The position numbers and the translations under genes were made by a program. Below, piece by piece: positions 41,213 to 57,968 of a stretch of 64,000 nucleotides of DNA (positions within the stretch are counted from its first letter, which is position 1; each line of letters begins with the position of its first letter). The notes beneath the pieces are model-generated. The model searched no databases and was not told where the DNA came from. It saw only the letters and a program-made list of their open reading frames with translations. Origin of the DNA: an uncultured Roseicyclus sp. (GTDB lineage Bacteria; Pseudomonadota; Alphaproteobacteria; Rhodobacterales; Rhodobacteraceae); assembly GCA_947489665.1 (NCBI GenBank), contig CANLEH010000001.1, positions 778,501 through 842,500 of the forward strand, in the 5' to 3' direction.

Positions 41213-42291
41213 AGGGCGTGAAGCACGGCGTTTGCCGCCTCAGACGTGCTGGCGGTGCCGCCAAGGTCGCGTGTCAGTACGTCGCCGCGCACGACAACCT
41301 GGTCAACGGCCTGCCGCAAGCGGTCGCCGTCAGCGCGCATCTCAGGGATGTCATGGCGCAGACCAAGCCAGTCCAGCATCATGGCCGCGGACAGGATCAT
41401 CGCAAACGGGTTGGCCGTGCCCTGGCCGGCAATATCAGGGGCGGACCCGTGGCAGGGCTGAAAGACAGCATGGTCAAGGCCGATATCCGCTGAGGGCGCA
41501 AGGCCAAGCCCGCCCATAAGACCTGCACCAAGATCAGACAGGATGTCACCGAACATGTTCTCAGTCACCAACACGTCAAAGTCCCAGGGTTTTTGCACCA
41601 TCCAAAGGGCCGTGGCGTCAACATAGGCATGATCTGCGGTGATCTCGGGGTGATGCGCCCCTTCGGCATCGAAAATCTCGCGAAAGAAGGCAAAGGCGCG
41701 GAAGACATTTGCCTTGTCGACGCAAGTTACCTTGCCGGGGCTTCGGCCAGTGGACTTGCGTGTCTTCGCCAGATCGAAAGCAAAACGGAACAGCTTTTCC
41801 GAGACGCTGCGTGTGATCAGGAGCGTTTCCTTTGCTGCATCTTTTGTAACTTCGCCGCGGCCTTGGGAATAGAACAGGCCTTCGGTGCTTTCCCGGATCA
41901 GCACAAAATCGATCTCGCGATCTGCCGGCAGATTGAGAGGGCTGCGCTGGCCGGCCTTGACGGTCACGGGACGGACGCCTGCGAACAGGGACAGCTCTTT
42001 GCGCAAATCAATCTGCGGCGAGATTTCCGTGCCGTCATCGTAGCGCACATCCGGCAACCCCATCGCCGAGAGAAGAATCGCATCGCAGCTGCGCGCCAGA
42101 TCCATGGACGCTTGCGGCAGTGATTCTCCGGTCTGCGCATAGTGCGATGCGCCCGCGGGTGCGTCTTGGAATGTCAGCCCATAGGACTGCGCCGCCCAAG
42201 CCAAACGCTCCAGTATTTGAAGCGTTGGTTTCATGATCTCTGGCCCGATCCCGTCCCCGTGGAACACTGCGATATCAAGGGTCTTGGTCAT
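41209..42291 (-). CDS. Isocitrate/isopropylmalate dehydrogenase-family enzyme (tartrate dehydrogenase-like)
   Basis: Beta-decarboxylating dehydrogenase of 360 aa. Landmarks: [20 protein letters not shown]; the substrate-loop [40 protein letters not shown] (catalytic Lys in VDKANV); [40 protein letters not shown]; and a [17 protein letters not shown] site. No leu operon genes are near, so leucine synthesis is unlikely. Oxidation of a tartrate- or malate-like C4 acid fits better. The ATG at 42289-42291 has AGAGG upstream. It leads the operon with the oxidoreductase and GntR, divergent from tctC. Confidence 0.88.
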
Positions 42292-42324
42292 TTGGGCCTC
42301 TTAGCGGATCAAAACGGAAAAGCG

Positions 42325-42369
42325 AACGTATCCGTTGATGAAGTTGACAACGTATCATTTAATGCATAC
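42325..42369. promoter_or_regulatory. Paired operator-like repeats in the GntR divergon
   Basis: AACGTATCCGTTGATG (42325-42340) and AACGTATCATTTAATG (42349-42364) match at 13 of 16 bases, with starts 24 bases apart. The second is part of a gapped palindrome, GTAT-N3-TTAA-N3-ATAC (42352-42369). Both lie in the shared promoter region and are candidate GntR binding sites. Confidence 0.5.
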
Positions 42370-42372
42370 GCA
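42344..42372 (+). promoter_or_regulatory. Probable sigma-70 promoter of tctC
   Basis: A consensus -35 TTGACA (42344-42349) is followed 17 bases later by TACGCA (42367-42372), a weak -10. The palindrome at 42352-42369 fills the spacer, so a bound repressor would block polymerase. Confidence 0.45.
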
Positions 42373-42416
42373 AATGAATGCAACACATATCAGCTTGCGT
42401 CTGGGAGGACGACCAA

Positions 42417-43424
42417 ATGAACTTCAAACTCGGAAAACTGGCGGCTCTGGCCATTGCAGCGGCGGGGCTCGGCACTGTCGCCACTGCGCAAGAATACCCG
42501 TTCCGCGATATTACCACCGCCGTGGTTTGGGGCGCTGGCGGCGGCACCGACAGTATCAACCGGATGATCATGGCCGAGATGGAGGCGCATCTGCCCGTAT
42601 CGATCAATGTCATCAACCAAACCGGTGGCGTCGCCGGATCCAACGGCATGGTCTATGTGATGAACCAGCCCGATGACGGCTACACGCTGGTGGGTCTGTC
42701 GGAATCAAATGTGACGGCGGCAGTTCAGGGCGGCTGGGATCAGCGCTTTGATTTCTGGTATCCGTTCATTGTTGGCGGATCGCCTGACCTGATCTCGGTG
42801 CCCGCGGACAGCCCTTACACAACGCTGGAAGAGCTGGTCGCAGCCGCGCAAGAAGCGCCGGGAACCATTCCGGCGGCGGCATCGGGTGCAGGCTCGATCC
42901 ACCATTTGAACCTGTTGGCGATCCAGAATGGCGCGGATGTCGAATTCCTGTTCGTGCCCTACGATGGCTCCGCGTCCGGTCAGGAAGCGGCGATTGCGGG
43001 TGAGGTCGCGCTGGTCGTCACCTCCCTTGCGGAACAGGCCGCATTGATCGAAGGCGGCATGCTGCGCCCACTTGCCATGCTGACCGAAGACAGTGCCGAG
43101 ATTGCAGGCATCACCGTGCCGTCGGCGTTTGATATCTACGATGGCCTGGATGCGTATCTGCCACTGATGCAGGCCATCGGGTTCGCCGTGCATGACAGCG
43201 CATCGGACGAAGTGAAGGCGGCCCTTGGTGCAGCCTTTGAGGCAGCCATCGCGTCGGACGTCGTGGCCGAATGGGCGGCTGCGAACAACTACACTGTCGG
43301 CGGCCAATATGGCGAAGAAGCACAAGCCATCTTCTCAACGCTGGAGGCCAACTTTGCCTACACCCTGCAAGAGCTTGGCGCGACAACCGTTGATCCCGCC
43401 AGCCTGGGGATCGAACGTCCCTGA
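42417..43424 (+). CDS. Tripartite tricarboxylate transporter substrate-binding protein (TctC)
   Basis: Periplasmic binding protein of 335 aa. The signal peptide is LAALAIAAAGLGTVATAQ. The Bug/TctC fold shows ITTAVVWGAGGGTDSINRMI MAEM, NVINQTGGVAGSNGMVYVMN and PGTIPAAASGAGSIHHLNLL AIQ. The ATG at 42417 has GGGAGG upstream. It leads the tctC-B-A-ABM-MBL-kinase operon. TctC proteins bind di- and tricarboxylates and other organic acids; the ligand here is unknown, with a C3-C4 hydroxy acid or sulfonated acid favoured by context. Confidence 0.9.
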   Translation: MNFKLGKLAALAIAAAGLGTVATAQEYPFRDITTAVVWGAGGGTDSINRMIMAEMEAHLPVSINVINQTGGVAGSNGMVYVMNQPDDGYTLVGLSESNVTAAVQGGWDQRFDFWYPFIVGGSPDLISVPADSPYTTLEELVAAAQEAPGTIPAAASGAGSIHHLNLLAIQNGADVEFLFVPYDGSASGQEAAIAGEVALVVTSLAEQAALIEGGMLRPLAMLTEDSAEIAGITVPSAFDIYDGLDAYLPLMQAIGFAVHDSASDEVKAALGAAFEAAIASDVVAEWAAANNYTVGGQYGEEAQAIFSTLEANFAYTLQELGATTVDPASLGIERP

Positions 43425-43508
43425 TTTCTCAATCTGGAACGTGACATTCTGCGGCGCCGGGTCCTCCTGGCGCTGCATTTCTGAGCAAGGTGATGGGACG
43501 CTGATCCG

Positions 43509-44297
43509 ATGAATGACCCGGCCATTGAGGAAAGCCCCCTCAAGACCACGCCCACCGACGAAGACATCGCGATCTTGCGGGCGCGGGATTTCTGGGCGTC
43601 TTTGCTGCTGATAGGCCTGTCGGTCTTCTTCCTGTGGCGGACCCTGGATATTCCCCTTTTCGGCGGCAACCGGGCCGGGGTCTCGGGCGCGTCCTGGTAC
43701 AATTCCGCCGCGATCGTGCCACTGGGAATTTTCACTGCCCTGCAGCTCCTATCGCTGGTTCTGCTTCGGATTGCGATCAAGGCGGGTGGCGCAAAAACGG
43801 CGTTGTCCGCCATGGGGATCGGGTGGGATCGGACCGAGGCTGTGCGCTTCACCACGATCGGGATCATTTTGTTTTTCTACATCGCCGGGCTGGTCCCGCG
43901 CGTTGATTTCATCGCCAGCAGTGGCTTGTTGATCACGGCGTTGATCTTCGGGTTCCACGGCGGGCGTGTTGCGCGCATGGCGCTGTGCGCTGCTGTTGTG
44001 GCGGTCTGCGGTGTATACGCCTTCGTCGCCCACCTGTCGCAAGCGGAATGGGGCGCGCATGACGATGACGTCGTGACTTTGATTGCCTGGGCCGGGCTGA
44101 TCCTATGGGTGCTGATTTGCGCGCGCGGTGACCGGGTCTTGCGAGTCGTACCAGTGATCGCGGTCCTGACGCCGGTCATCCTGGTCTGCGCGATGGCCTT
44201 CGGGTTCCGGCAGAACGTGCCAAACCGGGGCGGAGTGGTCTTCAGCCAGATCGAATACCATTACTACGTCACCCTCCGACCGATCTGGAGGGAGTGA
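43509..44297 (+). CDS. Tripartite tricarboxylate transporter small membrane subunit (TctB)
   Basis: The 262-aa product has a cytoplasmic N-terminal stretch of about 28 residues and then roughly six hydrophobic segments, more than the usual four of TctB (about 150 aa). LLIGLSVFFLWRTLDIPLFG and FGFRQNVPNRGGVVFSQIEY are visible. Position between TctC and TctA and the 3-base gap to TctA make the assignment secure despite weak sequence conservation. Confidence 0.8.
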   Translation: MNDPAIEESPLKTTPTDEDIAILRARDFWASLLLIGLSVFFLWRTLDIPLFGGNRAGVSGASWYNSAAIVPLGIFTALQLLSLVLLRIAIKAGGAKTALSAMGIGWDRTEAVRFTTIGIILFFYIAGLVPRVDFIASSGLLITALIFGFHGGRVARMALCAAVVAVCGVYAFVAHLSQAEWGAHDDDVVTLIAWAGLILWVLICARGDRVLRVVPVIAVLTPVILVCAMAFGFRQNVPNRGGVVFSQIEYHYYVTLRPIWRE

Positions 44298-44300
44298 GAG

Positions 44301-45812
44301 ATGGACTTCATCCTTACCCAGCTTTCGGGTTTTGGCGGGGCGCTTTGGGCGCTGATCATTGATCCGCTGACGTATATCTACCTGATCGTATCTGTCTTTC
44401 TGGGCATCACCTTTGGCGCCTTGCCCGGGCTGACGGCGACGCTGGCGGTGACCATCCTGACCGGTTTTTTCGGGAACAAAGTGCCGCTGGATTATTCGCT
44501 GATCGCTTTGCTTGGGGCCTATGTGGGCGCCATTTACGGCGGCAGTTATCCGTCCATCTTGCTCAATATTCCCGGTACGGCGGCCAGTGCGGCCACCGCG
44601 ATGGACGGCTACCCCTTGGCCAAGGCGGGTCGGGGCGGGGAGGCGCTTGGCCTGACCACAACAGGCAGCTTCATCGGCACGCTGATCGGCACGCTCGCTC
44701 TATTGGTGTTTGTTTGGGTCCTGCTGCTGCTGTCCGAGAATATCGCAAGTCCCGAAAAGGCGCTTCTCGCGCTGTTTGGCATCCTGCTGTCCGGCACGCT
44801 GATGTCCGAGGATTTGGTGGTGAAGGGATGGATTGCGGGGCTGATTGGCCTTGCCATGGCCATGGTCGGGCTGGACCCGCTTTTGTCCGAGCCGCGCTAT
44901 ACTTTCGGCTGGTCCTACATGCTGAGCGGCTTTCAGGTCGTGCCGGTTCTGATGGGGGCCTTTGCGGTGCCGCAGATCATCGAAGGTCTGCGCCACATGG
45001 ATGCAGGCAAGATCACGGAGCTGAAGGGCCGCATCCTGCCCAACTTGCGCGCGGTGCGCCGGTACCTGCCGACCATCACCCGGTCGGGCGTGATTGGCAC
45101 CGGTGTGGGCGCCTTGCCCGGCGTGGGTGAGGATGTTGCAGGCTGGGTCAGCTACGGCGTGGGCAAATCCGTCAGCAAGGAAGGCCACAAATTCGGGAAA
45201 GGGTCGCTTGAGGGGCTGTTGTCGTCCGAGACCGCCAACAATGCCTGTATCGGCGGTGCGCTTATTCCGCTTTTGGTTCTTGGCATTCCCGGCTCCCCCC
45301 CGGCTGCGGCGCTGTTGGGGGCGTTCAAGATCAACAATATCATCCCCGGTCCGACCATCGACCCTGACATCATTTTGCGCGTTGTCGCGATCATGGTCCT
45401 GGCGTCGTTCACGATGTTCTTCATGGGGCTGTTTACGGCAAAGGTCTTTATCAAGATCCTGGCTATCCCGCGTACCGTTTTCCTGCCGGTTGTCATGGTG
45501 CTGACGACCATCGGGTCGTTCAGTGTCGGCGGTGGCATCAATGACCTCTACCTGATGCTGGGCGTTGGATTTGTCGCCTATTTCATGAACCTGCTGAAGT
45601 TTCCCATCGCGCCGTTGGTCATTGGTGTGATCCTGGGCGGTTTGTTTGACGAGACCTTCCGCAGATCCTTGTTGATCTCGGGCGGGGATGTGATGGTCTT
45701 CTTCTCGCGCCCTGTGGCGGGGGTCCTGCTGGTCTTGAACATCAGCCTGGTCTTGAGCCAACTTCCTTTTGCCAAACGCGCCTTTGCGCGTCTTCGTGGA
45801 AAGACTGCTTGA
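44301..45812 (+). CDS. Tripartite tricarboxylate transporter large permease (TctA)
   Basis: Main permease of 503 aa with about 12 helices. TctA hallmarks: FLGITFGALPGLTATLAVTI, LLGAYVGAIYGGSYPSILLN IPGTAASAATAMDGYPLAKA, IGTGVGALPGVGEDVAGWVS and ETANNACIGGALIPLLVLGI PGSPPAAALLGAF. The stop shares its last base with the next start (TGATG). The transporter is driven by an ion gradient. Confidence 0.93.
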   Translation: MDFILTQLSGFGGALWALIIDPLTYIYLIVSVFLGITFGALPGLTATLAVTILTGFFGNKVPLDYSLIALLGAYVGAIYGGSYPSILLNIPGTAASAATAMDGYPLAKAGRGGEALGLTTTGSFIGTLIGTLALLVFVWVLLLLSENIASPEKALLALFGILLSGTLMSEDLVVKGWIAGLIGLAMAMVGLDPLLSEPRYTFGWSYMLSGFQVVPVLMGAFAVPQIIEGLRHMDAGKITELKGRILPNLRAVRRYLPTITRSGVIGTGVGALPGVGEDVAGWVSYGVGKSVSKEGHKFGKGSLEGLLSSETANNACIGGALIPLLVLGIPGSPPAAALLGAFKINNIIPGPTIDPDIILRVVAIMVLASFTMFFMGLFTAKVFIKILAIPRTVFLPVVMVLTTIGSFSVGGGINDLYLMLGVGFVAYFMNLLKFPIAPLVIGVILGGLFDETFRRSLLISGGDVMVFFSRPVAGVLLVLNISLVLSQLPFAKRAFARLRGKTA

Positions 45813-46102
45813 TGTATGTTGTCGCCGTAGACCTTGAGATTGATCTAGCTGAGGCGGAGGCCTTCATGGACCTGATGCTGGCCAATGCCGAAACCTCGCG
45901 CACCGCGGAAGAAGGGTGCATTCGGTTTGACGTATGCACCGATCCTGCGCGGCCAGGCAAAGTCTTTCTGTATGAGCTTTACACCGACCGGGCCGCCTTC
46001 GACGCCCATCTGGCGTCCGAGCATTTCCTTGCGTTCGATCAGGCGGTTGCCCCGCTGTTGCGTGCCAAGTCCATCCGGACTTTCGCGGAGGTCCGTCCAT
46101 GA
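45812..46102 (+). CDS. ABM-domain (antibiotic biosynthesis monooxygenase/YgiN-like) protein
   Basis: Small dimeric ferredoxin-like protein of 96 aa: VDLEIDLAEAEAFMDLMLAN AETSRTAEEGCIRFDV, then FLYELYTDRAAFDAHLASEH FLAFD. It resembles YgiN/LsrG-type proteins, some of which isomerise or oxidise small metabolites. ATG 45812 overlaps the tctA stop and its own stop overlaps the next gene by 4 bases, so it belongs to the operon. The precise reaction is unknown. Confidence 0.85.
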   Translation: MYVVAVDLEIDLAEAEAFMDLMLANAETSRTAEEGCIRFDVCTDPARPGKVFLYELYTDRAAFDAHLASEHFLAFDQAVAPLLRAKSIRTFAEVRP

Positions 46103-46896
46103 ACGATTGGGAGGTCTACAGCCTCAAATACGCGGACCGGAACGCGCGCACGCGGGCGGACAGCTTCATTTTCGATGACAATCACGATGCACCCCATGCG
46201 ATGGACTACTTCATCTGGGTGCTGCGCCGCGGGGTTGAGGTGATCCTTGTCGACACTGGCTATGATGCCGAAGAGGGCCATGCGCGGGGGCGCCCGATCC
46301 GCATGGACCCTGTGGCCGCGCTGGAGCCCTTGGGTCTTGCACCGGACGACATAACTCAGGTCATCGTCACCCATCTGCACTATGACCATGCGGGCGGGTT
46401 GCACCTGTTCCCGAACGCCACACTGCACCTTCAAGCCGCTGAAATGGCGTTCGCGACCGGCCCTTGCATGTGCCACGACACCCTGCGCATGCCATTCACC
46501 GCCGAGCATATATGCGAAGCGGTGCGGCGCCTCTATTCAGGCCAAGTTACCTTCCACGATGGAGACGCGGAGATCGCGGATGGCGTGACCGTCCATTGCA
46601 TCGGCGGCCATAGTCGCGGCTTGCAATGCGTGCGGGTGCGCACGCAAGCGGGCTGGCTGGTGCTGGCCTCGGACGCGGCGCATTTCTATGAAAATGTCTT
46701 TGCGCGGAAGCCTTTTCCAATCGTCGTGGATCTGCAAAACATGCTCGACGGGTTCGACACATTGCACAAGCTTACCTCCGCCCCCGGCTTGATCGTTCCG
46801 GGTCATGATCCACTGGTCCGGGCGCACTTTCCGCAGGCGATGGCGCCGCATATCCACCGGCTCGATCATGGGCCAAACACGGTGATCACCACATGA
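46099..46896 (+). CDS. Metallo-beta-lactamase-fold lactonase-like hydrolase
   Basis: The 265-aa product keeps the di-zinc motif THLHYDHAGG (HxHxDH) and the later metal ligands GGHSRGLQ, SDAAHFYENV and VPGHDPLV. This pattern is that of N-acyl-homoserine-lactonase-type enzymes. The operon position between a transporter and a sugar-acid kinase makes hydrolysis of a sugar-acid lactone more likely than quorum quenching. It overlaps both neighbours by 4 bases. Confidence 0.85.
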   Translation: MNDWEVYSLKYADRNARTRADSFIFDDNHDAPHAMDYFIWVLRRGVEVILVDTGYDAEEGHARGRPIRMDPVAALEPLGLAPDDITQVIVTHLHYDHAGGLHLFPNATLHLQAAEMAFATGPCMCHDTLRMPFTAEHICEAVRRLYSGQVTFHDGDAEIADGVTVHCIGGHSRGLQCVRVRTQAGWLVLASDAAHFYENVFARKPFPIVVDLQNMLDGFDTLHKLTSAPGLIVPGHDPLVRAHFPQAMAPHIHRLDHGPNTVITT

Positions 46897-48113
46897 AGAT
46901 CGGCGTTATTGCGGATGATTTTACTGGGGCGTCCGACATTGCGCTGACGCTGGCCGAGGCTGGAATGCGCGTGGCCCAGTTTATCGGCGTACCCGAAGGG
47001 CCCAGCGACCCAACGCTGGAGGCTGGGGTCGTTGCGTTGAAATCGCGAACCGCACCGGTGCAGGACGCCGTCGCGCAATCGTTGGCGGCCTGTTCCTGGC
47101 TCAAGGCCCAGGGCGCTACGCAATTCATCTTCAAGATATGCTCGACCTTCGACAGCACGCCGCAGGGAAATATTGGCCCGGTCCTCGATGCATTGGCCGA
47201 CCATCTTGGCGCCGGGGCCGTTATGGTGTGCCCGGCTTTCCCGGAGAACGGACGCAGCGTTTACCAAGGCCATCTGTTTGTCGCGGACCGTTTGCTGAGC
47301 GAAAGTGGCATGCAGGATCACCCGCTGACCCCGATGACAGACCCGGACTTGCGCCGGGTTCTTGCCGCCCAATCGGGCCGCGCGGTGGGGCATATACCTG
47401 CCAAAACCGTGCTTGACGGGCCAGATGCCATCAGGCGCGCGCTGGATGTGCAGGCCCATTTGATTACCGATGCGATTGCCGACGAAGATCTGATCCAGAT
47501 CGGCAGAGCGGCCAAGGGCGAAGCGTTGCTTTGCGGAGGATCCGGCATTGCCTTGGGATTGCCGGCCAACTTTGGAATTGCGCCGCGGACCCCGGACTGG
47601 CCGGGCATTGCGGGGCCGGGGGCTGTGTTCTCAGGCTCGTGCAGTGTGGCTACGCGCGGCCAAGTCGCTGCCTATTCGGCCTTGGCCCCCAGCTTTCAGA
47701 TCGACGCGGCAAAGGCGGTGAACAGCGAATACAATGTCGCGGACCTGGTTGATTGGGTCATGGCACAGGATCGGGCGCCGCTGATCTACTCGTCCGCTGA
47801 TCCGGACGTGGTGCGGGCGGCGCAAGCCGCCTTTGGGGCAGGTGTGGCTGCTGACGCGATCGAAGGCTTGTTCGCAGCACTCGCGCCTGCCCTTGTCAAC
47901 GTCGGCATCCGCCGCTTGGTCGTGGCGGGGGGCGAAACCTCGGGCGCGGTCGTCTCGGGCCTTGGGGCCAAGGTTCTCAACATCGGGCCCCGCGCGGCGG
48001 CGGGTGTGCCGTTGGTTGAAAGCGATGGCACAGCGCTCGCGCTGAAATCAGGAAATTTCGGCGGCCCGGATTTCTTCGCCGAAGCACTTGCGATGATGGA
48101 AGTCGCAAACTGA
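46893..48113 (+). CDS. Four-carbon acid sugar kinase family protein (DUF1537, OtnK/DtnK-like)
   Basis: The 406-aa product opens with IGVIADDFTGASDIALTLAE, the DDFTGA motif of the N-terminal substrate domain. It continues with KICSTFDSTPQGNIGPVLDA and VCPAFPENGRSVYQGHLFV, and has the nucleotide-binding C-terminal segment VVAGGETSGAVVSGLGAKVL NIGP. Family members phosphorylate D-threonate, D-erythronate or 3-oxo-tetronates. No aldolase (OtnC), isomerase (OtnI) or PdxA2 partner is adjacent; the isopropylmalate-dehydrogenase-family enzyme of the divergent operon may fill the oxidative step. It converges with the FMN oxidase gene, leaving one base between them. Confidence 0.9.
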   Translation: MKIGVIADDFTGASDIALTLAEAGMRVAQFIGVPEGPSDPTLEAGVVALKSRTAPVQDAVAQSLAACSWLKAQGATQFIFKICSTFDSTPQGNIGPVLDALADHLGAGAVMVCPAFPENGRSVYQGHLFVADRLLSESGMQDHPLTPMTDPDLRRVLAAQSGRAVGHIPAKTVLDGPDAIRRALDVQAHLITDAIADEDLIQIGRAAKGEALLCGGSGIALGLPANFGIAPRTPDWPGIAGPGAVFSGSCSVATRGQVAAYSALAPSFQIDAAKAVNSEYNVADLVDWVMAQDRAPLIYSSADPDVVRAAQAAFGAGVAADAIEGLFAALAPALVNVGIRRLVVAGGETSGAVVSGLGAKVLNIGPRAAAGVPLVESDGTALALKSGNFGGPDFFAEALAMMEVAN

Positions 48114-48114
48114 T

Positions 48115-49209
48115 CTAGTGGGGGCGCGGCATCTCGGTCGCGCCGATCTGGGCCAGGGTGATGCTGGTCTCAGCGGTCAGCACCGACCAAAGCTGCGCCA
48201 AACCCTCTTGCCCTCCAGCCGCAATTGCGAATTGCAGGATGCGCCCCAGAAAGGCGAAATTCGCGCCCTGCATATACGCCTTCACGACATCCTCTCCGCT
48301 GCGTAGGCCGGTGTCGAAAAACAGGGGGTAATCGGGGCCAACCACCTCGCGGATAGCGGGCAGAACAGAGATGGGAGCAGGGGCGCTTTCCAGTTGCCGC
48401 GCGCCGTGGCTTGAAACCTGAATGGCGTCAATGCCCTCGGCCTTCAGTTGTCCCGCATCCTCGGGGTCCAACACGCCTTTGACGACCAGATTGCCCGGCC
48501 ATGCATCCCGCAATTGCTTGAGCGTATCCCAATCCGCCTTGGCTCGGCTGGCCTTGCGGTCAAAGCTGAAGCCCTCCATCCGGAAATTCGCCATATCGGG
48601 CTTGCCCGCCAGCAGCGAGGTGATGGACCACCGCGGATGCAGCGCAAAGTCGAGGAACTGCCAAGGGCCGATACGGAAGGGCATGGTGAAGCCGTGGCGC
48701 AACTCGCGGGGGCGACGGCCAACCTCTGGCACATCGACGGTCAGAATCAGCGTCTCGTAGCCTGCCGACTTTGCACGCTCGACTAGTTTGAACGTCTCTG
48801 TTCCGTCGCCCGAGAAGTAGAGCTGGAACCAGGCATGGCCTCGCGCTTCTTCTATAATATCTTCCAGCGGTGTGGAGGATACGGTGGACACACCCAGCGG
48901 CACCTCTTCGCGCGCCGCCAGGCGTGCCAGCATCATATCCGCGCCGGGACCTGACAGATTGCACATCCCCATGGGCGAGATGCCGAACGGGGCCTTTGTT
49001 GTCTTGCCAAACAAGGTGGATGACAAATCCCGCTGACTGACATCGCGCAGAATGCGGGGCCGCAGGTTGAGCGCGTCAAAGGCGGCTCGGTTGCGATCCG
49101 CCCCCGTTTCCGTCCCCGCTGCGCCGTCGATATAGTCGAACACCATCCAGGGCAGACGCCGCTTCGCAATGCGCCGCGCGTCCGCGCTGGAATGGATTGC
49201 CGAGTCCAT
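48115..49209 (-). CDS. FMN-dependent alpha-hydroxyacid oxidase/dehydrogenase
   Basis: TIM-barrel flavoprotein of 364 aa of the lactate/glycolate oxidase family. PWMVFDYIDGAAGTETGADR NRAAFD, GISPMGMCNLSGPGADMMLA, VKGVLDPEDAGQLKAEGIDA IQVSSHGARQLESAPAPI (catalytic His in SSHGARQL) and FFDTGLRSGEDVVKAYMQGA are the standard landmarks. It lacks a membrane segment. It is the last gene of the hpsN-like/comDE operon, one base after comE. Because the next enzyme needs sulfopyruvate, oxidation of 3-sulfolactate is the attractive substrate; lactate or another 2-hydroxyacid cannot be excluded. Confidence 0.85.
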   Translation of the reverse strand: MDSAIHSSADARRIAKRRLPWMVFDYIDGAAGTETGADRNRAAFDALNLRPRILRDVSQRDLSSTLFGKTTKAPFGISPMGMCNLSGPGADMMLARLAAREEVPLGVSTVSSTPLEDIIEEARGHAWFQLYFSGDGTETFKLVERAKSAGYETLILTVDVPEVGRRPRELRHGFTMPFRIGPWQFLDFALHPRWSITSLLAGKPDMANFRMEGFSFDRKASRAKADWDTLKQLRDAWPGNLVVKGVLDPEDAGQLKAEGIDAIQVSSHGARQLESAPAPISVLPAIREVVGPDYPLFFDTGLRSGEDVVKAYMQGANFAFLGRILQFAIAAGGQEGLAQLWSVLTAETSITLAQIGATEMPRPH

Positions 49210-49210
49210 G

Positions 49211-49765
49211 TTAGCTGGCCACGGCTTTCATGAAACGGTCGCGGATGATGACCGGGTCCATCGTGATGACTGGCATCTTGGCATTGCCGCTGTCGCATTT
49301 CACGATCATCACTGTGCCTTTGCCGCTATCGAGGGCGGCTTGCAGGGCCTCGCCGGTGTCCACATCCTGCACCTCGACCACGTTGTCACAGCCCGCCGCG
49401 CGGGCCATGCCCGCAAGATCGGTTTTGCGACCCGTATAGGTGGGCTGATCGCCTGTGGACCCGTAGGAGCCATTGTCGATGATCATCAGAATGTAGTTGT
49501 CCGGGCAATTGTTGCCGATGGTGGGCAGGGTGCCGAGGTTCGTCAGGACCGAGCCGTCGCCGTCGATCACGATAACCGGCTTGGGCTGTGCGATGGCCAG
49601 GCCAAGCCCGATCGACGAGGCCAGCCCCATCGTGCCGAGCATGTAGAAATTGGTCGGCTGATCGTCGATGGCGTGCAGTTCCTGCGACGGGATGCCGATA
49701 TTGCAGACGACAAGCTGGTCACGCAGTATCGGGGCGATTTCTTTCAGGATTTCAGAACGGATCAT
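49211..49765 (-). CDS. comE: Sulfopyruvate decarboxylase beta subunit
   Basis: TPP-binding subunit of 184 aa. VCNIGIPSQELHAIDDQPTN FYMLGTMGLASSIGLGLAIA closely resembles archaeal ComE, and VIDGDGSVLTNLGTL is the TPP/Mg motif (GDGS...N). With ComD it decarboxylates sulfopyruvate to sulfoacetaldehyde, both in coenzyme M synthesis and in bacterial sulfonate degradation. Phosphonopyruvate decarboxylase is the closest alternative, but that is usually one fused chain beside phosphonate genes, none of which are here. It overlaps comD by 4 bases. Confidence 0.88.
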   Translation of the reverse strand: MIRSEILKEIAPILRDQLVVCNIGIPSQELHAIDDQPTNFYMLGTMGLASSIGLGLAIAQPKPVIVIDGDGSVLTNLGTLPTIGNNCPDNYILMIIDNGSYGSTGDQPTYTGRKTDLAGMARAAGCDNVVEVQDVDTGEALQAALDSGKGTVMIVKCDSGNAKMPVITMDPVIIRDRFMKAVAS

Positions 49766-50268
49766 TGGTCGCCATAGCCTCCCCAGAAAGAGGCATCCGT
49801 CAGGATCGCCACGGGTTTGTTTGCCATAAAGGTGTATTTCAGGATCTCGTCGAACTCATCCGCGTCCGATTCCTTGTGGAAATGGTAGGTCGGGATCAGC
49901 ATCTGGTTCAGCAGGGCCTTTGTGTGCACGGCCATTTCCACCTGACAGGCAACCGGTTCGCGCAGCTCACCCCGGTACGAAATCAGGATCGGCAGCGGCA
50001 TCCGGTAGTACTGCGTCAGCGTCGCAAGCGTGTTGATCGTCACACCAATGGCGGTGTTCTGCATAATGATGGCCGGGCGCTTGCCGCCCATCCACGCCCC
50101 AGCGCACAGGCCCATCCCCTCGTCTTCCTTGTTCGACGGGATGTGGAAGATCTCGGGCCGGGCTTCGACTTCGTCGATCACCCCGGCCAGCTGTTTGCAC
50201 GGCACGGTGGTGATGAAGGACACGTCGTTGGCGACGAAATCGTCAACGAGCTTCTTGGAAATGTTCAC
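49762..50268 (-). CDS. comD: Sulfopyruvate decarboxylase alpha subunit
   Basis: The 168-aa product has the N-terminal pyrimidine-binding half of the TPP enzyme: SFITTVPCKQLAGVIDEVEA, HIPSNKEDEGMGLCAGAWMG (conserved catalytic Glu in the EDEG segment), PAIIMQNTAIGVTINTLATL, PLPILISYRG. The start is taken as GTG 50268 (VNISKKLVDDF), with AGGAG about 11 bases upstream; no ATG is available nearby and the frame runs upstream without homology. Paired with ComE in one transcript. Confidence 0.88.
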   Translation of the reverse strand: MNISKKLVDDFVANDVSFITTVPCKQLAGVIDEVEARPEIFHIPSNKEDEGMGLCAGAWMGGKRPAIIMQNTAIGVTINTLATLTQYYRMPLPILISYRGELREPVACQVEMAVHTKALLNQMLIPTYHFHKESDADEFDEILKYTFMANKPVAILTDASFWGGYGDQ

Positions 50269-50320
50269 TTGTTTCGATGCTCCTGATGGCCCAAGCGGCG
50301 GGCTGTTGCGGTAAGACGGC

Positions 50321-50734
50321 TTAGACGGTGTCGCGCAGGACGTGGACCGCGCAATGGGCGTGGCGCACGACCCGCGATGCTGTGGATCCCAGAAGGAAAT
50401 CGACAAGCTCAGGGCGGTGGGAACCCATGATGATCAGATCGGCCCCTTCGGCCTTGGCTGCATCAATGATCGTGCGCCCCCCATGGCCCTTCACGGCGAC
50501 ACCCTTGGCATTGGGCACATCGGCCATGCGGTCAGCCATTTTTGCCTGTGCGGCCTCAAACGCGGCGTTTGAGATATCGGCGTCGATCCAGGCGTTCACA
50601 GTTCCCTGCGGTTCCTCAAAGACGTGGAGAGCCGTGATCTGGCCCCCGTCTGCCAAAAGACATTGCGCCAGTTTCAGCGCCTGCGGGCCATAGCCGTGGT
50701 CGAGGGCCATTGCGATCATGATATGCTTATACAT
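50321..50734 (-). CDS. Universal stress protein (UspA family)
   Basis: The 137-aa product is a single Usp domain: KHIMIAMALDHGYGPQALKL at the start and the ATP-binding loop IMGSHRPELVDFLLGSTASR VVRHAHCAVHVLRD (G-x2-G-x9-G-S/T type) at the end. It lies in the middle of the sulfonate operon, between the alcohol dehydrogenase and comD, same strand. Usp genes embedded in catabolic operons are common in roseobacters; the role here is unknown. Confidence 0.92.
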   Translation of the reverse strand: MYKHIMIAMALDHGYGPQALKLAQCLLADGGQITALHVFEEPQGTVNAWIDADISNAAFEAAQAKMADRMADVPNAKGVAVKGHGGRTIIDAAKAEGADLIIMGSHRPELVDFLLGSTASRVVRHAHCAVHVLRDTV

Positions 50735-50764
50735 GGTGGCGGTGTCTCCGTTCGGCGGTTGGGT

Positions 50765-51751
50765 TTACGCGTTGGGACGCAGGATGATTTTTGGGGCGGC
50801 CACGCGGCCTGCGCGAATGTCGGCAAAGGCGGCGGCTCCGTCAGACAGGGGGCGGTCTTCCGTCCAGTCCAGCGGACCGAGACGACCCTCAAAAAGGGCG
50901 GCCGCCGTGTCGCGGAAATCCTGCTTGGTATAAGTATAGGTGCCGATAAACGTGATCTCCTGCAACGTCATGCGCCGGATATCCAGGCCGCCTGCATCTG
51001 AGCCAAGCCCGACATGGGCGATCACACCCCCCGGTGATGCATGGGCAGAGGCAGCGGCGCGCGTCGCTTCGAACCCAACCGCATCAATAACGACGGGGTA
51101 GAGCGCATCCGCAGGGATCGCGTCGGCCACGGCCTCCGCGCATTGGTCTTGCAGGAAGTGTCGGCGGGTCTCGTTTGGCTCAACGATCAGCGTCTCACGG
51201 CACCCCATGGCGCGAAGGGCCAGGGCAGCGGCCAGACCTATGGCGCCGCCCCCGATCACAAGGGCGCGTTTCTCCATTGTTGGGTGCAGCGCCTCGAGCG
51301 CCAGGCGCGCCGCGTGCCAGCTGACAGCAAGCGGTTCGGCCAATGCGGCCTTTGCCAGCGACACGGTGTCCGGCACAGTCACCAGATTGTCTTCCGGCAT
51401 AGCCACGAATTGCGCAAACGCCCCTTCGCGCGGAGGCATGGAGATGATCTGACGATCCGGACACAGGTTTTCGCGCCCGGCTCGGCTGGCGGCACTGTCG
51501 GGGTTGGTCACAAGCGGATTGATCGTCACACGCCGCCCGTCTTGCGGGCCGCCCACGATAACGCCAGCCGCTTCATGGCCAAGGATCAGGGGCGCGGGCC
51601 GTCGGGCGTCATGGCCAAGATAGGCATGCATGTCAGAGCCGCAGATGCCAACAGCCTCCACCCGGATCAGATGCTCCCCCGCGCCCGGGACGGCCATCTC
51701 GGTATCCCGGAACCCCAGGGTTTCAACACCATCGTAAATCAGGGCCTTCAT
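50765..51751 (-). CDS. Zinc-type alcohol dehydrogenase family protein, possible sulfopropanediol 2-dehydrogenase (HpsP/HpsO-like)
   Basis: Medium-chain dehydrogenase of 328 aa. The catalytic-zinc segment CGSDMHAYLGHDARRPAPLI LGHEAAGVI (Cys, GHE) and the nucleotide-binding ALVIGGGAIGLAAALALRAM are present. The lobe that normally binds structural zinc through four cysteines (C-x2-C-x2-C-x7-C) is degraded: NPDSAASRAGRENLC keeps only the last cysteine. It overlaps the SDR gene by 4 bases. In known dihydroxypropanesulfonate pathways two 2-dehydrogenases interconvert the R and S isomers; this gene and the SDR are candidates. Confidence 0.85.
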   Translation of the reverse strand: MKALIYDGVETLGFRDTEMAVPGAGEHLIRVEAVGICGSDMHAYLGHDARRPAPLILGHEAAGVIVGGPQDGRRVTINPLVTNPDSAASRAGRENLCPDRQIISMPPREGAFAQFVAMPEDNLVTVPDTVSLAKAALAEPLAVSWHAARLALEALHPTMEKRALVIGGGAIGLAAALALRAMGCRETLIVEPNETRRHFLQDQCAEAVADAIPADALYPVVIDAVGFEATRAAASAHASPGGVIAHVGLGSDAGGLDIRRMTLQEITFIGTYTYTKQDFRDTAAALFEGRLGPLDWTEDRPLSDGAAAFADIRAGRVAAPKIILRPNA

Positions 51752-52509
51752 TTCGCTGTGAACCCCCCGTCGACCATCAGAACCTGCCCTGTGACATAGG
51801 CGCTAGCCTCGGAGCACAGGAACAGAAGCGGGCCGTCTATGTCATCCAACGTGCCATTGCGCCCCATGCAGGTCTGCGCCGCATTCCGCGCTGCGCGTTC
51901 AGGGTCGGCAAAGACCGGGCCTGTCAATTCCGTGGGGAAAAAGCCCGGCCCGATGGCGTTGATGTTGATCCCAAATGCCGACCAGGCTTCGGCCATGGCA
52001 CGGGTCAATTGGCCGATGCCTGCCTTTGACGCGCCATAGGCAAGCCCACCCGGGAACGCGCGCGTCGTCTGGAGCGACGCAAAATTCACCACGCGTCCCC
52101 AGCCCTTGTCTTTCATTGCCGGCACGAAGGCCTGCGTCAAAAAGAAAGGGGCTGCGAGGTTCAGGTTCAGGGTCAGATCCCATCCGTCCGGCGTGACCTC
52201 ATCGGCAGCTTGGCGGGTGTTGACGCCCGCGGCGTGCACAATGATGTCCGGTGGTCCGAACGGGGCCGTCACGCTGGCCGCGATGTCGTTCAGCGCACTG
52301 CGATCCGAAAGATCGGCAGCCACCACGGCCGCTGGCGGGCCCGTCCGATCGGCCCAGTCTTGCAGGGCCTCTTCCCGTCGCGCCACCGCAACAACCCGCG
52401 CCCCTGCGTCGGCCAACGCGCTGGCGGCCTGCTGCCCCAGCCCGGCGCTGGCGCCGGTCACACAAGCCACCCGGCCTGTCAGATCGAAGAGGCGCGAGGT
52501 GTCCGACAT
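51748..52509 (-). CDS. Short-chain dehydrogenase/reductase, possible sulfopropanediol 2-dehydrogenase (HpsO/HpsP-like)
   Basis: Classical SDR of 253 aa: cofactor motif ACVTGASAGLGQQAASALAD, VHAAGVNTRQAADEVT (NAG variant), catalytic Ser in VNFASLQTTRAFPGGLAYGA SKAG with Y-x3-K, and ININAIGPGFFPTEL. It overlaps hpsN-like by 3 bases (CATCA) and the alcohol dehydrogenase by 4, so it is fixed in this operon. Gluconate 5-dehydrogenase-type SDRs are similar, so the sulfonate role rests on context. Confidence 0.88.
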   Translation of the reverse strand: MSDTSRLFDLTGRVACVTGASAGLGQQAASALADAGARVVAVARREEALQDWADRTGPPAAVVAADLSDRSALNDIAASVTAPFGPPDIIVHAAGVNTRQAADEVTPDGWDLTLNLNLAAPFFLTQAFVPAMKDKGWGRVVNFASLQTTRAFPGGLAYGASKAGIGQLTRAMAEAWSAFGININAIGPGFFPTELTGPVFADPERAARNAAQTCMGRNGTLDDIDGPLLFLCSEASAYVTGQVLMVDGGFTAK

Positions 52510-53816
52510 CAGCCGTCGGCGCTCAGATCAAAATTCTCGCCGGGGAAGTATTTCGCAAGGCGCACATCGGCCGCACGGGCATGGCCCTCCATCCCTTCCA
52601 GGCGCGAGATGCGCGCGGTCGCCTCGGCCACACCGCGCGAGCCTTCGCGCGTGGCTTGCTGCCAAGTGACAATCTTCATGTATTTGTGCACCGAAAGGCC
52701 GCCCGTGTAGGAGGCAGCGCCTGAGGTCGGCAAAACGTGGTTCGTCCCGGTTGCCTTGTCACCATAGGAGACCGTCGTTTCCTCGCCCACAAAGAGCGAG
52801 CCGTAACAGGTCAGGCGATTTTTCCACCAATCCAGTTCGTCGGCCTGCACTGTCAGATGCTCGGGCGCATATTCGTCGGAACAGGCGGCCATATCTTCAC
52901 GGTCCTCGCAAATGATCACCTCGGCATAGTCACGCCATGCGGCTGTAGCATTTTCACGGTTCGTCTCGGGCAGATCGTCGATCAGGCCGGGGACCAGCGA
53001 CATCACGTTCTCGGCCAGGTCGCGATCATTCGTGACCAGCCAAACCGGCGAGTTATAGCCATGCTCGGCCTGGCTCACCAAATCCGTGGCAACGATATGT
53101 GCGTCCGCCGTCTTGTCAGCGAGGATCAGGCTGTCGGTTGGTCCGGCGATCATGTCGATGCCAACACGCCCAAACAGGATGCGTTTGGCTTCGGCGACGA
53201 ACTGGTTGCCCGGCCCGACAAGGATGTTGGCCTTGGGCAGTCCAAACAGGCCAAAGCTCATTGCGGCCACGCCCTGCACGCCGCCAAGGGCCATGATGGT
53301 GTCCGCGCCGCAGATATGGGCGGCATAGATGATGGCAGGGGCGACGCCCACACCAGGGCGAGGCGGTGAGGTGGCGACGATATGTTTGCATCCCGCGACC
53401 TTGGCGGTCGTCACCGTCATGATGGCGCTTGCGATATGACTGTAGCGGCCGCCGGGGACGTAACAGCCTGCCGTATCGACCGGGATCGCCTTTTGGCCAG
53501 CAATGAAGCCCGGTACGATCTCGACCTCCACATCGCTGAGCGTGCTTTTCTGCGCCTCGGCAAAGCGGCGCACATTGTCGTGTGCAAAGCGGATATCGGC
53601 CTTGAGCTTTTCAGGAACTTGCGCTGCCGCGGCCTCGATCTCTTCCGCAGTCAGAATGATGTTGCCATCATATTTGTCGAACTTGGCGGCATATTCCTTC
53701 GCCTTTGCGTCACCACCGGCCTCGATATCGGCGAGGATGGCCTGCACCGTCTCATGGACGTCCGAGGCATCCGACTTTGAGGTGAGTTGCGCTTTCTTCA
53801 AATATTCGCGGGTCAT
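52509..53816 (-). CDS. Histidinol-dehydrogenase-family protein, probable sulfopropanediol 3-dehydrogenase (HpsN-like)
   Basis: The 435-aa enzyme has the HisD active site intact: VSQAEHGYNSPVW (zinc ligands Gln and His), DEYAPEHLTV (catalytic Glu-His), YGDKATGTNHVLPTSG (zinc Asp) and GGLSVHKYMKIVTWQ (His). HpsN, the NAD+-dependent enzyme oxidising (R)-2,3-dihydroxypropane-1-sulfonate to sulfolactate, is a known member. No other histidine-biosynthesis gene is present, and sulfopyruvate decarboxylase lies in the same operon. The ATG at 53816 has AGGA 11 bases upstream; the frame upstream runs into the palindromic operator. It heads the seven-gene operon. Confidence 0.85.
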   Translation of the reverse strand: MTREYLKKAQLTSKSDASDVHETVQAILADIEAGGDAKAKEYAAKFDKYDGNIILTAEEIEAAAAQVPEKLKADIRFAHDNVRRFAEAQKSTLSDVEVEIVPGFIAGQKAIPVDTAGCYVPGGRYSHIASAIMTVTTAKVAGCKHIVATSPPRPGVGVAPAIIYAAHICGADTIMALGGVQGVAAMSFGLFGLPKANILVGPGNQFVAEAKRILFGRVGIDMIAGPTDSLILADKTADAHIVATDLVSQAEHGYNSPVWLVTNDRDLAENVMSLVPGLIDDLPETNRENATAAWRDYAEVIICEDREDMAACSDEYAPEHLTVQADELDWWKNRLTCYGSLFVGEETTVSYGDKATGTNHVLPTSGAASYTGGLSVHKYMKIVTWQQATREGSRGVAEATARISRLEGMEGHARAADVRLAKYFPGENFDLSADG

Positions 53817-53894
53817 CGGCGGCGTTGTCCTATCGATCGAAAATCTGGGGCGGTGGCGCCGCGCGGGCTGCGAAACGGCGAATCTCTCAGGCTC

Positions 53895-53933
53895 ATGTAA
53901 GCGCTTGCACACCCTTTATGCAAGCGCTTACAT
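53895..53933. promoter_or_regulatory. Perfect 15-bp inverted repeat of two LacI-type operators
   Basis: ATGTAAGCGCTTGCA (53895-53909) and its exact reverse complement TGCAAGCGCTTACAT (53919-53933) flank a 9-base spacer. Each arm on its own contains the LacI/GalR-family core TGnAAnCGnTTnCA. Arm centres are 24 bases apart, about two helical turns. The site lies 79 bases upstream of the HpsN-like start. The structure could also form a hairpin, but there is no adjacent T-run. Confidence 0.75.
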
Positions 53934-54075: not shown

Positions 54076-55779
54076 CTAAATCACGTCCCCGCGCCGAACG
54101 GCGGCCTCGACCTCGGCGATATCCTCAGACGACAGGCCATAGTCCCGGGCTGCCGCGTCTGCGCTGATATAGCCGCGCGCAAGATCCCGCATGATCGCGT
54201 CCCGCGACCGCTCCGCAGGGTCGCCGTAACCCGCGCCACCGGGGAAAGCCATTTGCACCCGCCGTCCATGTGGCACGAATTGCTTGCCCTTGCCCCGCAT
54301 CGGCGTGCCGTCATCCTGCGCAATCGTGGTGCGCGCGCCGTCCGCGCCGCCCCGCCGCCCCCGGGCCGGGTGCTGGCCTCGGTCGAACATGGCCTGAATG
54401 TCAAACTCATGCCCTCCTCGTGCGCCGACTTCCATATATTGGCCCAAACCGCCGCGTGTCTTGCCGGCGCCGCCGCTGTCGGGTCGCAATTCCTTGCGCC
54501 AGATGATCACTGGCCCCGCATGTTCCGTGGCCTCAATCGGCATGGTCATGACGCCCGAAGGGAAGGCCGTCGCATTCATCCCGTCCAGATCGGGCCGCGC
54601 CCCGGATCCGCCGGAGTTGAACGTCAACACTTCCGAGCGTCGGGCATCCGCCGGGGCAGGGGCGTCGGTGCGGGGCCGCAGCGACACCTGGAAGTTGCAC
54701 AGACATCCCGCCCCCTCCGCGGGCACCAAACCCGGCACGATCTTGTCGAATGCGTCAAAAACCGCATCCGGTACGAAATGGCCCACGATATGGCGCAGGG
54801 CCACGGGCGCGGGGTGCAACGCATTCACGATGGTGCCTTCGGGCGCAGTCACTTCAAACGGCGCCAACGACGCCGCATTGTTGGGGATCTCCGGCGCAAT
54901 GGCGACCTTCAGCGCGTAGCAGGCATAGGCTTTGGTGTAGACCATCGGGCAATTGATGCCCTTCTTGTCGACGCCACTGGTGCCTGTGAAATCCGTAACG
55001 ATCCGGTCCTCTTCGACACGGACCGTTACCTTCAAGGTAATGGGAGTGTCGAACCCGTCCATGGTCATCGACCCGTCGGCCGTGACACGCGGCAGGGCAT
55101 TGATCGCCTCTAGCGTTGCGCGGCGCGAATTCTCGAGGATGAAGGCGGCAATCCCGTCTAGGTCCGCCAACCCAAACTCATCCATCATGTCCATCAATCT
55201 GCGGTGGCCAATCTCATTGCAGGTCGCCAACGCATAGATGTCGCCAATCAGCTGATCCGGCTCGCGCACATTGCCCCGGATGATGCGCGTGAGGGTTTCG
55301 TCCACCACGCCCTTTTCAGCGAATTTCATGATCGGGATATACAGTCCCTCTTCATAAACGCTTTGGGCATCCGCCCCAAAACCGCGCCCGCCTATGTCGA
55401 CGATATGGGCCGTGCAGGCGAAAAAGCCGACAAGCATGCCCTTGTGGAACGATGGCGTGACCATCGTGATGTCATGCAAATGGCCAGTGCCTTCCCACGG
55501 ATCGTTGGTGATGTAGACGTCGCCCTCAAACATGCTCTCGCGTCCAATCCGGCGGATGAAATGCGCCACGGCATCGGCCATGGCATTCACATGGCCCGGC
55601 GTGCCTGTCACCGCCTGGGCGAGCATCTGACCCTCGCGATCATAAACCCCGGCGGACAGGTCGCCTGCCTCGCGGACGGAGGTCGAAAAGGCCGTGCGCA
55701 CAAGCGCTTGCGCCTGTTCTTCAACAACTGAGATCAGACGATTCCACATGATCTGATAGGCGACATTGGACTGGGTCAT
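54076..55779 (-). CDS. hyuB: Hydantoinase B/oxoprolinase-family protein
   Basis: The 567-aa protein has the HyuB opening MWNRLISVVEEQAQALVRTA FSTSVREAGDLSAGVYDREG and FIRRIGRESMFEGDVYITND PWEGTGHLHD, plus HIVDIGGRGFGADAQSVYEE GLYIP and RGGLGQYMEVGARGG later. It acts with a HyuA partner in ATP-dependent opening of hydantoin-like rings or in related carboxylases. The gene overlaps hyuA by 4 bases. No third small subunit (as in acetone carboxylase) is present, so a hydantoin or 5-oxoproline-like substrate is more likely. Confidence 0.9.
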   Translation of the reverse strand: MTQSNVAYQIMWNRLISVVEEQAQALVRTAFSTSVREAGDLSAGVYDREGQMLAQAVTGTPGHVNAMADAVAHFIRRIGRESMFEGDVYITNDPWEGTGHLHDITMVTPSFHKGMLVGFFACTAHIVDIGGRGFGADAQSVYEEGLYIPIMKFAEKGVVDETLTRIIRGNVREPDQLIGDIYALATCNEIGHRRLMDMMDEFGLADLDGIAAFILENSRRATLEAINALPRVTADGSMTMDGFDTPITLKVTVRVEEDRIVTDFTGTSGVDKKGINCPMVYTKAYACYALKVAIAPEIPNNAASLAPFEVTAPEGTIVNALHPAPVALRHIVGHFVPDAVFDAFDKIVPGLVPAEGAGCLCNFQVSLRPRTDAPAPADARRSEVLTFNSGGSGARPDLDGMNATAFPSGVMTMPIEATEHAGPVIIWRKELRPDSGGAGKTRGGLGQYMEVGARGGHEFDIQAMFDRGQHPARGRRGGADGARTTIAQDDGTPMRGKGKQFVPHGRRVQMAFPGGAGYGDPAERSRDAIMRDLARGYISADAAARDYGLSSEDIAEVEAAVRRGDVI

Positions 55780-57875
55780 GCGGCACCTCCGGCATGGGCG
55801 GGTTTCGTCATCACGTCGATACAGCCATCACTGTTGCACATTGCATCGCGGCTGCTGGGGACGATGATGGTGGTCTCATCCTCGACGATGACAGCCGGCC
55901 CCTGTGCGATCTGGCCCGTGTGAAAGCCCTCGCGCCCTACAACCTGGGCATCGGTGAAGGCCGCCTTGGCCGGATCAAACAGACGGCGCGTACCGCTATT
56001 CTCAGCAGCGCCAGTCACATTTGTCTGCTGTAGCGGATCCGGCGCAATCGGTGGCGTTGTGGCATTCACGGCCCAAACCGTGATCTCGATGTCCATACCT
56101 TTCACGGTCCGCGCGAAAAGCTTGGTATATTCTTCTTCAAACCGCTGTTTGAACGTCTCGGCATCCGGGTCCATCGCCTGCGCCTCGGTCAACGGGATGG
56201 GGATCTCCCAACCCTGCCCGGAATAGCGCATGTACACCTTGAACTCCGACAAGATGGGGCTTTCGGCATCGCAGCTTCGTACAAAGCCCGTCGCTTCCTG
56301 CTGCAACTCAGCCAGCAACAGCCGGATCACTTCCGCATCGAAATCCGCCAGCCGCATGTAGACGGAGCGGTTGGCCTCAAAACTGAAGGGCGCCCGCAGG
56401 AAGCCGATGGCGCTGCCGACACCGGCGCCGGGCGGTACAAGGCATCGGGCGATCCCTAGCTTTTCACACAGCCGCCCCGCGTGCAGCGGGGCCGCACCGC
56501 CAAACGCGATCATCGTGTATTCGCTTAGGTCTTCCCCATTTTCGACAGCGTGGACCCGTGCCGCATTGGCCATATTCTCATCCACAACCTCGGCCACGCC
56601 GAAGGCCGCTTCCTCCGCATCCATGCCTAAAACGTCTGCGAGGACGCCCGTCAGGGCAGAGGAGGAGGCATCCGGCGAGAGCCGAATCGACCCGCCTGCG
56701 AAGTTCTCGGGGTCCAGCTTGCCCAGAACCAGATCGGCGTCCGTGACCGCAGGCCGGTCGCCCCCGCGCCCGTAGCAAGCTGGCCCCGGCTCGGAGCCTG
56801 CGCTTTCAGGGCCCACCCGGATCTGACGCATCGCATCCACATGGGCCAGCGACCCACCGCCCGCACCAATCTCCACCATATCGATCACGGGGATCGAAAT
56901 GGGCATCCCCGACCCCTTCTTGAAGCGATAGGTCCGCGCCACTTCAAAGACGCGCGAAGTCTTCGGCGTTTGATCTTTGATCAGGCAGATCTTCGCCGTC
57001 GTCCCGCCCATGTCGAAGCTTAAGACCTTATCCAAACCATGCCGTGCCGCGATATGCGCCGCGAATACGGCCCCGCCGGCAGGCCCGGACTCCACCAATC
57101 GAACAGGAAACTCCGCCGCATCCGCGATCGAGATGATCCCGCCGCCCGAATGCATCAGGAACACCTGACACTCGGCCCCCTCGGCGTGCAAACGATCCTC
57201 CAAACGGCCCAGATAGGACGCCATCAGCGGCTTGATATAGGCGTTGGCCACCACAGTGTTGAACCGCTCATACTCGCGCATCTGCGGCGAGACTTCGGAT
57301 GAAATTGAGACGGAAACATCCGGCAAACGCTCTGCCAGAACCTCCCGCACCAATTGCTCATGGGTTGGGTTGAGGTACGAATGGATTAGCCCCACTGCGA
57401 CGCTTTCAAAGCCGCCCTCCGCAATCCGGTCGACCACTGCCTCGACGGCCTCACGCTGCAGGTCAATCAAGACGGCGCCGGTCGCATCCACACGGCCAGG
57501 CACCGTAAAGCGGCGTTCGCGCGGCAATAGCGGCTCAGGCAGGGTTAGGTTCAGATCATATTGCTCAAACCGCGACTCGGTGCGCATTTCGATCACATCG
57601 CGGAAGCCTTCGGTCGTTATGAGTGCCGTCTTGGCCCCGCGCCGCTCGATCAGCGCGTTTGTGGCCAGGGTCGTTCCATGGATGATCTGTCCAATCTCGC
57701 CCGGCGTAACCCCGGCCTTCCCGCAGACCTGCTTCATCCCGTTGATGATCGCGTCCTCGGGCGCGGCATAGGTTGTCAGAACCTTGGTCGAATGCAGCCC
57801 CGTGGCCGTTTCCAGAACCACGTCCGTGAACGTCCCGCCGATATCAACGCCAAGCCGGTTTGCGATCTTTGCCAT
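55776..57875 (-). CDS. hyuA: Hydantoinase A/oxoprolinase-family protein
   Basis: The 699-aa ATP-dependent subunit has an actin-like fold: NRLGVDIGGTFTDVVLE (phosphate 1), GEIGQIIHGTTLATNALIER RGAKTALITTEGFRDVIEM, LSFDMGGTTAKICLIKD (phosphate 2), IPVIDMVEIGAGGGSLAHVD and PGPACYGRGGDRPAVTDADL VLG. The ATG at 57875 gives the standard N-terminus; the frame extends 22 codons upstream without homology. A LysR gene lies about 90 bases upstream on the same strand. Confidence 0.92.
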   Translation of the reverse strand: MAKIANRLGVDIGGTFTDVVLETATGLHSTKVLTTYAAPEDAIINGMKQVCGKAGVTPGEIGQIIHGTTLATNALIERRGAKTALITTEGFRDVIEMRTESRFEQYDLNLTLPEPLLPRERRFTVPGRVDATGAVLIDLQREAVEAVVDRIAEGGFESVAVGLIHSYLNPTHEQLVREVLAERLPDVSVSISSEVSPQMREYERFNTVVANAYIKPLMASYLGRLEDRLHAEGAECQVFLMHSGGGIISIADAAEFPVRLVESGPAGGAVFAAHIAARHGLDKVLSFDMGGTTAKICLIKDQTPKTSRVFEVARTYRFKKGSGMPISIPVIDMVEIGAGGGSLAHVDAMRQIRVGPESAGSEPGPACYGRGGDRPAVTDADLVLGKLDPENFAGGSIRLSPDASSSALTGVLADVLGMDAEEAAFGVAEVVDENMANAARVHAVENGEDLSEYTMIAFGGAAPLHAGRLCEKLGIARCLVPPGAGVGSAIGFLRAPFSFEANRSVYMRLADFDAEVIRLLLAELQQEATGFVRSCDAESPILSEFKVYMRYSGQGWEIPIPLTEAQAMDPDAETFKQRFEEEYTKLFARTVKGMDIEITVWAVNATTPPIAPDPLQQTNVTGAAENSGTRRLFDPAKAAFTDAQVVGREGFHTGQIAQGPAVIVEDETTIIVPSSRDAMCNSDGCIDVMTKPAHAGGAA

Positions 57876-57968
57876 GAAGGGCCCCAGTGCTTTCTCGAAT
57901 ATTTCGGTTAAAGCGCAAAACGGCATGAGCGCAAAATTCATTTTTTGCGCCGAGATGATAAAGAAAAT

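Follow-up and report, generated by a model that had tools for sequence, protein, structure and literature searches.

A predicted dihydroxypropanesulfonate catabolic operon of an already described kind in an uncultured Roseicyclus species

A seven-gene operon from an uncultured Roseicyclus sp. raises the question of whether the flavin mononucleotide (FMN) enzyme encoded at its end represents a new solution for the oxidation of sulfolactate. The operon is located in a stretch of 64,000 nucleotides (hereafter the window) from contig CANLEH010000001.1 of assembly GCA_947489665.1, positions 778,501 to 842,500. An earlier sequence-only reading interpreted its genes as a pathway leading from 2,3-dihydroxypropane-1-sulfonate (DHPS), which is an algal sulfonate, to sulfoacetaldehyde. 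The same reading proposed that the FMN enzyme is an oxidase distinct from the described sulfolactate dehydrogenases ComC, SlcC, and SlcD. By analogy with characterized relatives, we consider it very probable that this is a catabolic operon for DHPS. However, it would be of the HpsNOP-SlcD-ComDE-Xsc kind, which is already a described pathway, and the FMN gene is not a new solution for sulfolactate oxidation.

All seven genes are present on one strand in the order originally proposed. Along the minus strand from 53816 to 48115, these are hpsN, hpsO, hpsP, a universal stress protein gene (usp), comD, comE, and the gene for an FMN 2-hydroxyacid dehydrogenase. The hpsN and hpsO genes overlap by 1 base, and overlaps of 4 bases are present both for hpsO with hpsP and for comD with comE. 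Gaps of 30 bases and 1 base separate hpsP from usp and comE from the FMN gene, respectively. The description of neighbors that overlap or lie 1–30 bases apart therefore holds for most pairs, and only the gap of about 52 bases between usp and comD is slightly wider. For comparison we used 80 related loci, the best 80 of at least 578 confirmed places obtained with R. pomeroyi HpsN as the query. These are close relatives, nearly all from marine alphaproteobacteria as judged by record title. The full seven-gene order recurs in 28 of them (24 with room on the contig and four on contigs that end early), and because of this recurrence the order is not a product of chance.

The first gene, hpsN (52509..53816, ATG start at 53816, 435 amino acids), is predicted to encode the DHPS 3-dehydrogenase that would convert (R)-DHPS to (R)-sulfolactate. 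Its best match among solved structures is 8wwe, "(R)-DHPS dehydrogenase" (E = 2.4e-231), followed by 8v35, the CpHpsN protein of C. pinatubonensis (E = 3.4e-159). Identification of the protein as a histidinol dehydrogenase was considered and rejected, since structures of that type match only at E = 3e-74 or weaker. We also checked whether the protein clusters away from characterized HpsN, and solved DHPS dehydrogenases are its best matches. Residues 123–127 read GRYSH, in agreement with the HpsN motif G-R-Y-A/S-H that replaces the G-S-A-P-L of histidinol dehydrogenases (PMC11382572). The catalytic Glu-His pair (E319 and H320) and the zinc/substrate Asp (D353) are likewise kept, with counterparts at E318, H319, and D352 in CpHpsN and D353 in RpHpsN (PMC11382572, PMC11131964). 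HpsN proteins are also selected in PMC11382572 by the presence of hpsO and hpsP homologs nearby, and in the window both are directly downstream from hpsN in the operon.

The next two products would oxidize DHPS to sulfolactaldehyde, HpsO acting on the (R) form and HpsP on the (S) form. The best solved match of the predicted SDR-family enzyme HpsO (51748..52509, 253 amino acids) is 8wwf, "(R)-DHPS dehydrogenase HpsO" (E = 2.6e-118), and the protein retains Q147, a substrate-binding residue (PMC11131964). The predicted zinc-type dehydrogenase HpsP (50765..51751, 328 amino acids) matches 8wwd, "zinc-containing alcohol dehydrogenase," at E = 8.5e-136, far ahead of the runner-up at E = 5.1e-26, and retains H59. 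The two enzymes had been called 2-dehydrogenases, a description that needs correction because oxidation of (R)- and (S)-DHPS is placed at C3 in PMC11131964, not at C2. The fourth gene (50321..50734, 137 amino acids; Pfam Usp, E = 1.3e-24) codes for an hpsQ-like universal stress protein that is 46% identical to the product of the gene at the hpsQ place of an R. pomeroyi locus.

Decarboxylation of sulfopyruvate to sulfoacetaldehyde would fall to ComDE. The alpha subunit gene comD (about 49762..50268) was recognized with TIGR03845 and has a GTG start behind AGGAG. The beta subunit gene comE (49211..49765) encodes a protein above the curated NCBIfam cut-off (TIGR03846, 237.7 versus 221.5 bits). 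Subsequent conversion to sulfite and acetyl-CoA would require Xsc and Pta, which had been expected to be encoded outside the window if the pathway is complete. The genome, which totals 4.13 Mb in 11 contigs and is 99.95% complete, indeed contains a single xsc gene above cut-off (C1:1456720; TIGR03457, 910.9 versus 676.4 bits in a genome-wide search), with pta directly behind it. Absence of xsc is thus rejected, and the xsc-pta pair joins the HpsNOP matches and the HpsN motif and catalytic residues in upholding the proposed route from DHPS to sulfoacetaldehyde. Two other branches were also searched for. PF04295, which we assume SuyB carries, has no match in this genome and is found in five of 14 control genomes. 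The sole match in the genome to TIGR01275, which CuyA would presumably match, reaches 29.7 bits against a cut-off of 289.4.

The identity of the last gene (48115..49209, 364 amino acids; Pfam FMN_dh, E = 6.4e-117) decides the question of novelty. In R. pomeroyi DSS-3, SPO0594–SPO0598 correspond to hpsN, hpsO, hpsP, hpsQ (UspA), and slcD, and SPO0598 is annotated as "membrane-bound sulfolactate dehydrogenase" (PMC4334477). At the slcD place of the R. pomeroyi locus in our collection is an FMN_dh protein 68% identical to that of the window, as expected of an SlcD counterpart, and the two proteins have identical NCBIfam best matches, all under cut-off. We also built an FMN_dh tree of 44 rows, including 42 hps-operon proteins. 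The window protein falls inside this hps-operon group, in a supported set with the proteins of loci L050 and L080 (98/89). It is apart from the two other full-length FMN_dh proteins of its own genome (39% and 32% identical); these two have long branches, which makes their exact position in the tree uncertain. Furthermore, Jannaschia sp. CCS1, Ruegeria sp. ANG-S4, and Granulosicoccus were reported in 2024 to have HpsNOP, SlcD, ComDE, and Xsc (PMC11382572). Judged by place and sequence, the FMN enzyme is the described sulfolactate dehydrogenase SlcD, and because R. pomeroyi synteny, the ANG-S4 operon, and the tree agree on this, the proposed novelty does not hold. A false claim of novelty for the sulfolactate step is thereby removed.

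The predicted SlcD would convert sulfolactate into sulfopyruvate; this oxidation would probably take place at the membrane, with the electrons passing into the respiratory chain. That the protein belongs to the FMN family was read correctly, but the label "oxidase" is doubtful because its closest full-length solved relatives by sequence are (S)-mandelate dehydrogenases of the membrane-bound kind. Among the top sequence matches, it aligns end to end with the (S)-mandelate dehydrogenase 6bfg, without gaps over residues 170–210, whereas lactate oxidases align only as two separate blocks (10–180 and 241–340). We take the 170–210 segment to be the membrane-binding part in mandelate dehydrogenase. 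A predicted model of the protein has a mean predicted local distance difference test score of 83.3, with values under 50 at residues 160–175. In a fold search with this model, mandelate dehydrogenases occupy ranks 1–3 (6bfg at rank 2), with soluble glycolate and mandelate oxidases close behind. At the top of the ranking, the scores of mandelate dehydrogenase, glycolate oxidase, and mandelate oxidase differ by less than two orders of magnitude, and a dehydrogenase therefore cannot be told from an oxidase by fold. By stereochemical rules, the configuration of (R)-sulfolactate corresponds to that of L-lactate, and an FMN dehydrogenase acting on L-hydroxyacids would thus be naturally suited to it. 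Kinship with mandelate dehydrogenases also fits the "membrane-bound sulfolactate dehydrogenase" annotation of SPO0598 (PMC4334477).

A further idea is more tentative, and on balance we lean against it. The name SlcD is already in the literature, but the protein may never have been characterized in purified form as an FMN enzyme, and it could be an L-type (that is, (R)-sulfolactate) quinone-linked dehydrogenase that replaces the nicotinamide adenine dinucleotide (NAD)-linked ComC or SlcC across marine alphaproteobacteria. If this were true, the operon would offer an uncomplicated setting for demonstrating such a quinone-linked SlcD. The membrane attachment, stereochemistry, and electron acceptor of SlcD are all testable with this operon family.

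Three known systems resemble the operon most closely. The hps operon of Ruegeria sp. ANG-S4 (PMC11382572 section 2.8; L051 in our collection) has all seven genes arranged as in the window, with protein identities of 85% for HpsN, 71% for HpsO, 74% for HpsP, 49% for Usp, 83% for ComD, 80% for ComE, and 72% for the FMN enzyme. In contrast to ANG-S4, the window lacks upstream hpsKLM genes and has hyuAB-type genes there instead. The R. pomeroyi DSS-3 operon hpsRKLMNOPQ-slcD (SPO0590–SPO0598; PMC4334477), represented in our collection by strain SZCCDBG043 (L009), shares with the window the order of hpsN, hpsO, hpsP, uspA/hpsQ, and the FMN gene, as well as a LacI-type operator pair. Unlike the window, the R. 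pomeroyi locus has no comDE between hpsQ and slcD, and its transporter and regulator genes are linked to the operon. R. pomeroyi is placed in the CuyA branch in PMC11382572, whereas the Roseicyclus genome has no CuyA-like match over cut-off. Finally, Jannaschia faecimaris DSM 100420 (L057) has the same seven-gene order and an FMN protein 76% identical to that of the window. Relatives of HyuA (78%) and HyuB (83%) are also upstream there, as in the window, but relatives of HpsR, HpsK, and HpsM are located between hyuB and hpsN.

Several observations weigh against assigning the operon to DHPS catabolism through SlcD. Every reaction proposed for this organism is extrapolated from relatives. ComD is just under its NCBIfam cut-off (TIGR03845, 144.6 versus 147.95 bits). 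HpsP keeps only one of four cysteines in a lobe where they presumably bind structural zinc, and among 73 aligned HpsP relatives, 72 keep four or five and one (L053) has none. The genome has no close relative of HpsK (best 26%), and no hpsKLM transporter is encoded beside the operon; HpsK is also missing from the fetched DNA of 25 of the 80 loci, in some because the contig ends. It is synteny that identifies SlcD as an FMN protein, and the R. pomeroyi strain compared was SZCCDBG043, not DSS-3. Moreover, our literature search found no passage calling SlcD an FMN or alpha-hydroxy acid enzyme. Lastly, 15 of the 80 loci (including L061, L063, and L067) have comD and/or comE but no FMN gene within the scanned region; for two of these 15 (L058 and L078) the contig ends early. 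Another enzyme can therefore stand at the sulfolactate step.

One alternative is judged very improbable. The FMN enzyme might act on lactate, glycolate, or another nonsulfonated hydroxyacid, leaving sulfolactate to a ComC- or SlcC-type enzyme encoded elsewhere. Lactate and glycolate are common substrates of FMN_dh proteins, and there are two PF02615 places in the genome (C2:313053 and C1:585074), the first of which has NF040650, "L-sulfolactate dehydrogenase," as its best NCBIfam match. However, this match is far short of the cut-off (140.2 versus 500 bits), with the scan confined to the matching portion of the gene at C2:313053 and no search made for SlcC-type genes. In addition, the FMN gene directly follows comE, and an FMN gene is present in 41 of the 80 loci.

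The original proposal, that a new and undescribed FMN oxidase takes the place of the known sulfolactate dehydrogenases, now appears highly unlikely. The protein is indeed an FMN_dh member, and no NCBIfam SlcD model scores above cut-off for the FMN proteins of the window, R. pomeroyi, or ANG-S4. Against these points, its gene occupies the syntenic position of slcD, and the pathway concerned was already described in 2024. We give almost no credence to the third alternative, that the operon serves a nonsulfonated acid sugar, as may the convergent cluster next to it (42378–48113), which encodes a TTT transporter and a 3-oxo-tetronate kinase. In favor of this alternative, a single base separates that cluster from the FMN gene, and the kinase scores above the OxoTetrKin cut-off (520.5 versus 350 bits). 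Against it, the 80 hps loci have no relative of TctA, TctB, or TctC (E up to 1e-5) and only one kinase relative (L049, 46%), so that hps genes go without them.

Returning to the DHPS operon, its control region contains a predicted LacI-type operator pair 5' of hpsN (53895..53933), consisting of 15-base arms that are fully complementary and separated by 9 bases. The 14-base operator site occurs exactly only before hpsN in this genome, in two copies, and once more with one mismatch on contig C5. Among the 80 loci, 45 have a similar pair, 21 have a single site, and 14 have none, among them the closely related loci L048, L057, and L080. In R. pomeroyi (L009), the pair is just outside the divergent LacI gene hpsR. 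The best HpsR relative of the Roseicyclus genome is encoded on contig C6 and is 59% identical, which is within the range shown by 72 HpsR relatives identified across the 80 loci (55%–100%, median 62%). No sulfonate genes were recognized by eye in the C6 surroundings, and therefore the role of this hpsR-like gene as the likely regulator of the operon is a guess. More generally, a LacI-type operator pair is a signature of hps operons, including those from which the regulator gene has moved away.

A separate cluster at 39506–48113 includes genes for a GntR-type regulator, an oxidoreductase, an isocitrate/isopropylmalate-type dehydrogenase, and a TctCBA-type transporter (the regulator, oxidoreductase, and transporter being named by eye). 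It also includes genes for an ABM-domain protein, a lactonase-like metallo-hydrolase, and the 3-oxo-tetronate kinase noted above. This cluster is probably for a four-carbon acid sugar. Its inclusion in the hps system was considered and rejected, given that none of the 80 loci has TctA, TctB, or TctC relatives. Directly upstream of the operon, at 54076–57941, are genes identified by eye as encoding hydantoinase/oxoprolinase-type HyuA and HyuB. Relatives of these two proteins (46%–47%) are also encoded near hps genes, on the other strand, in loci L071 and L088.

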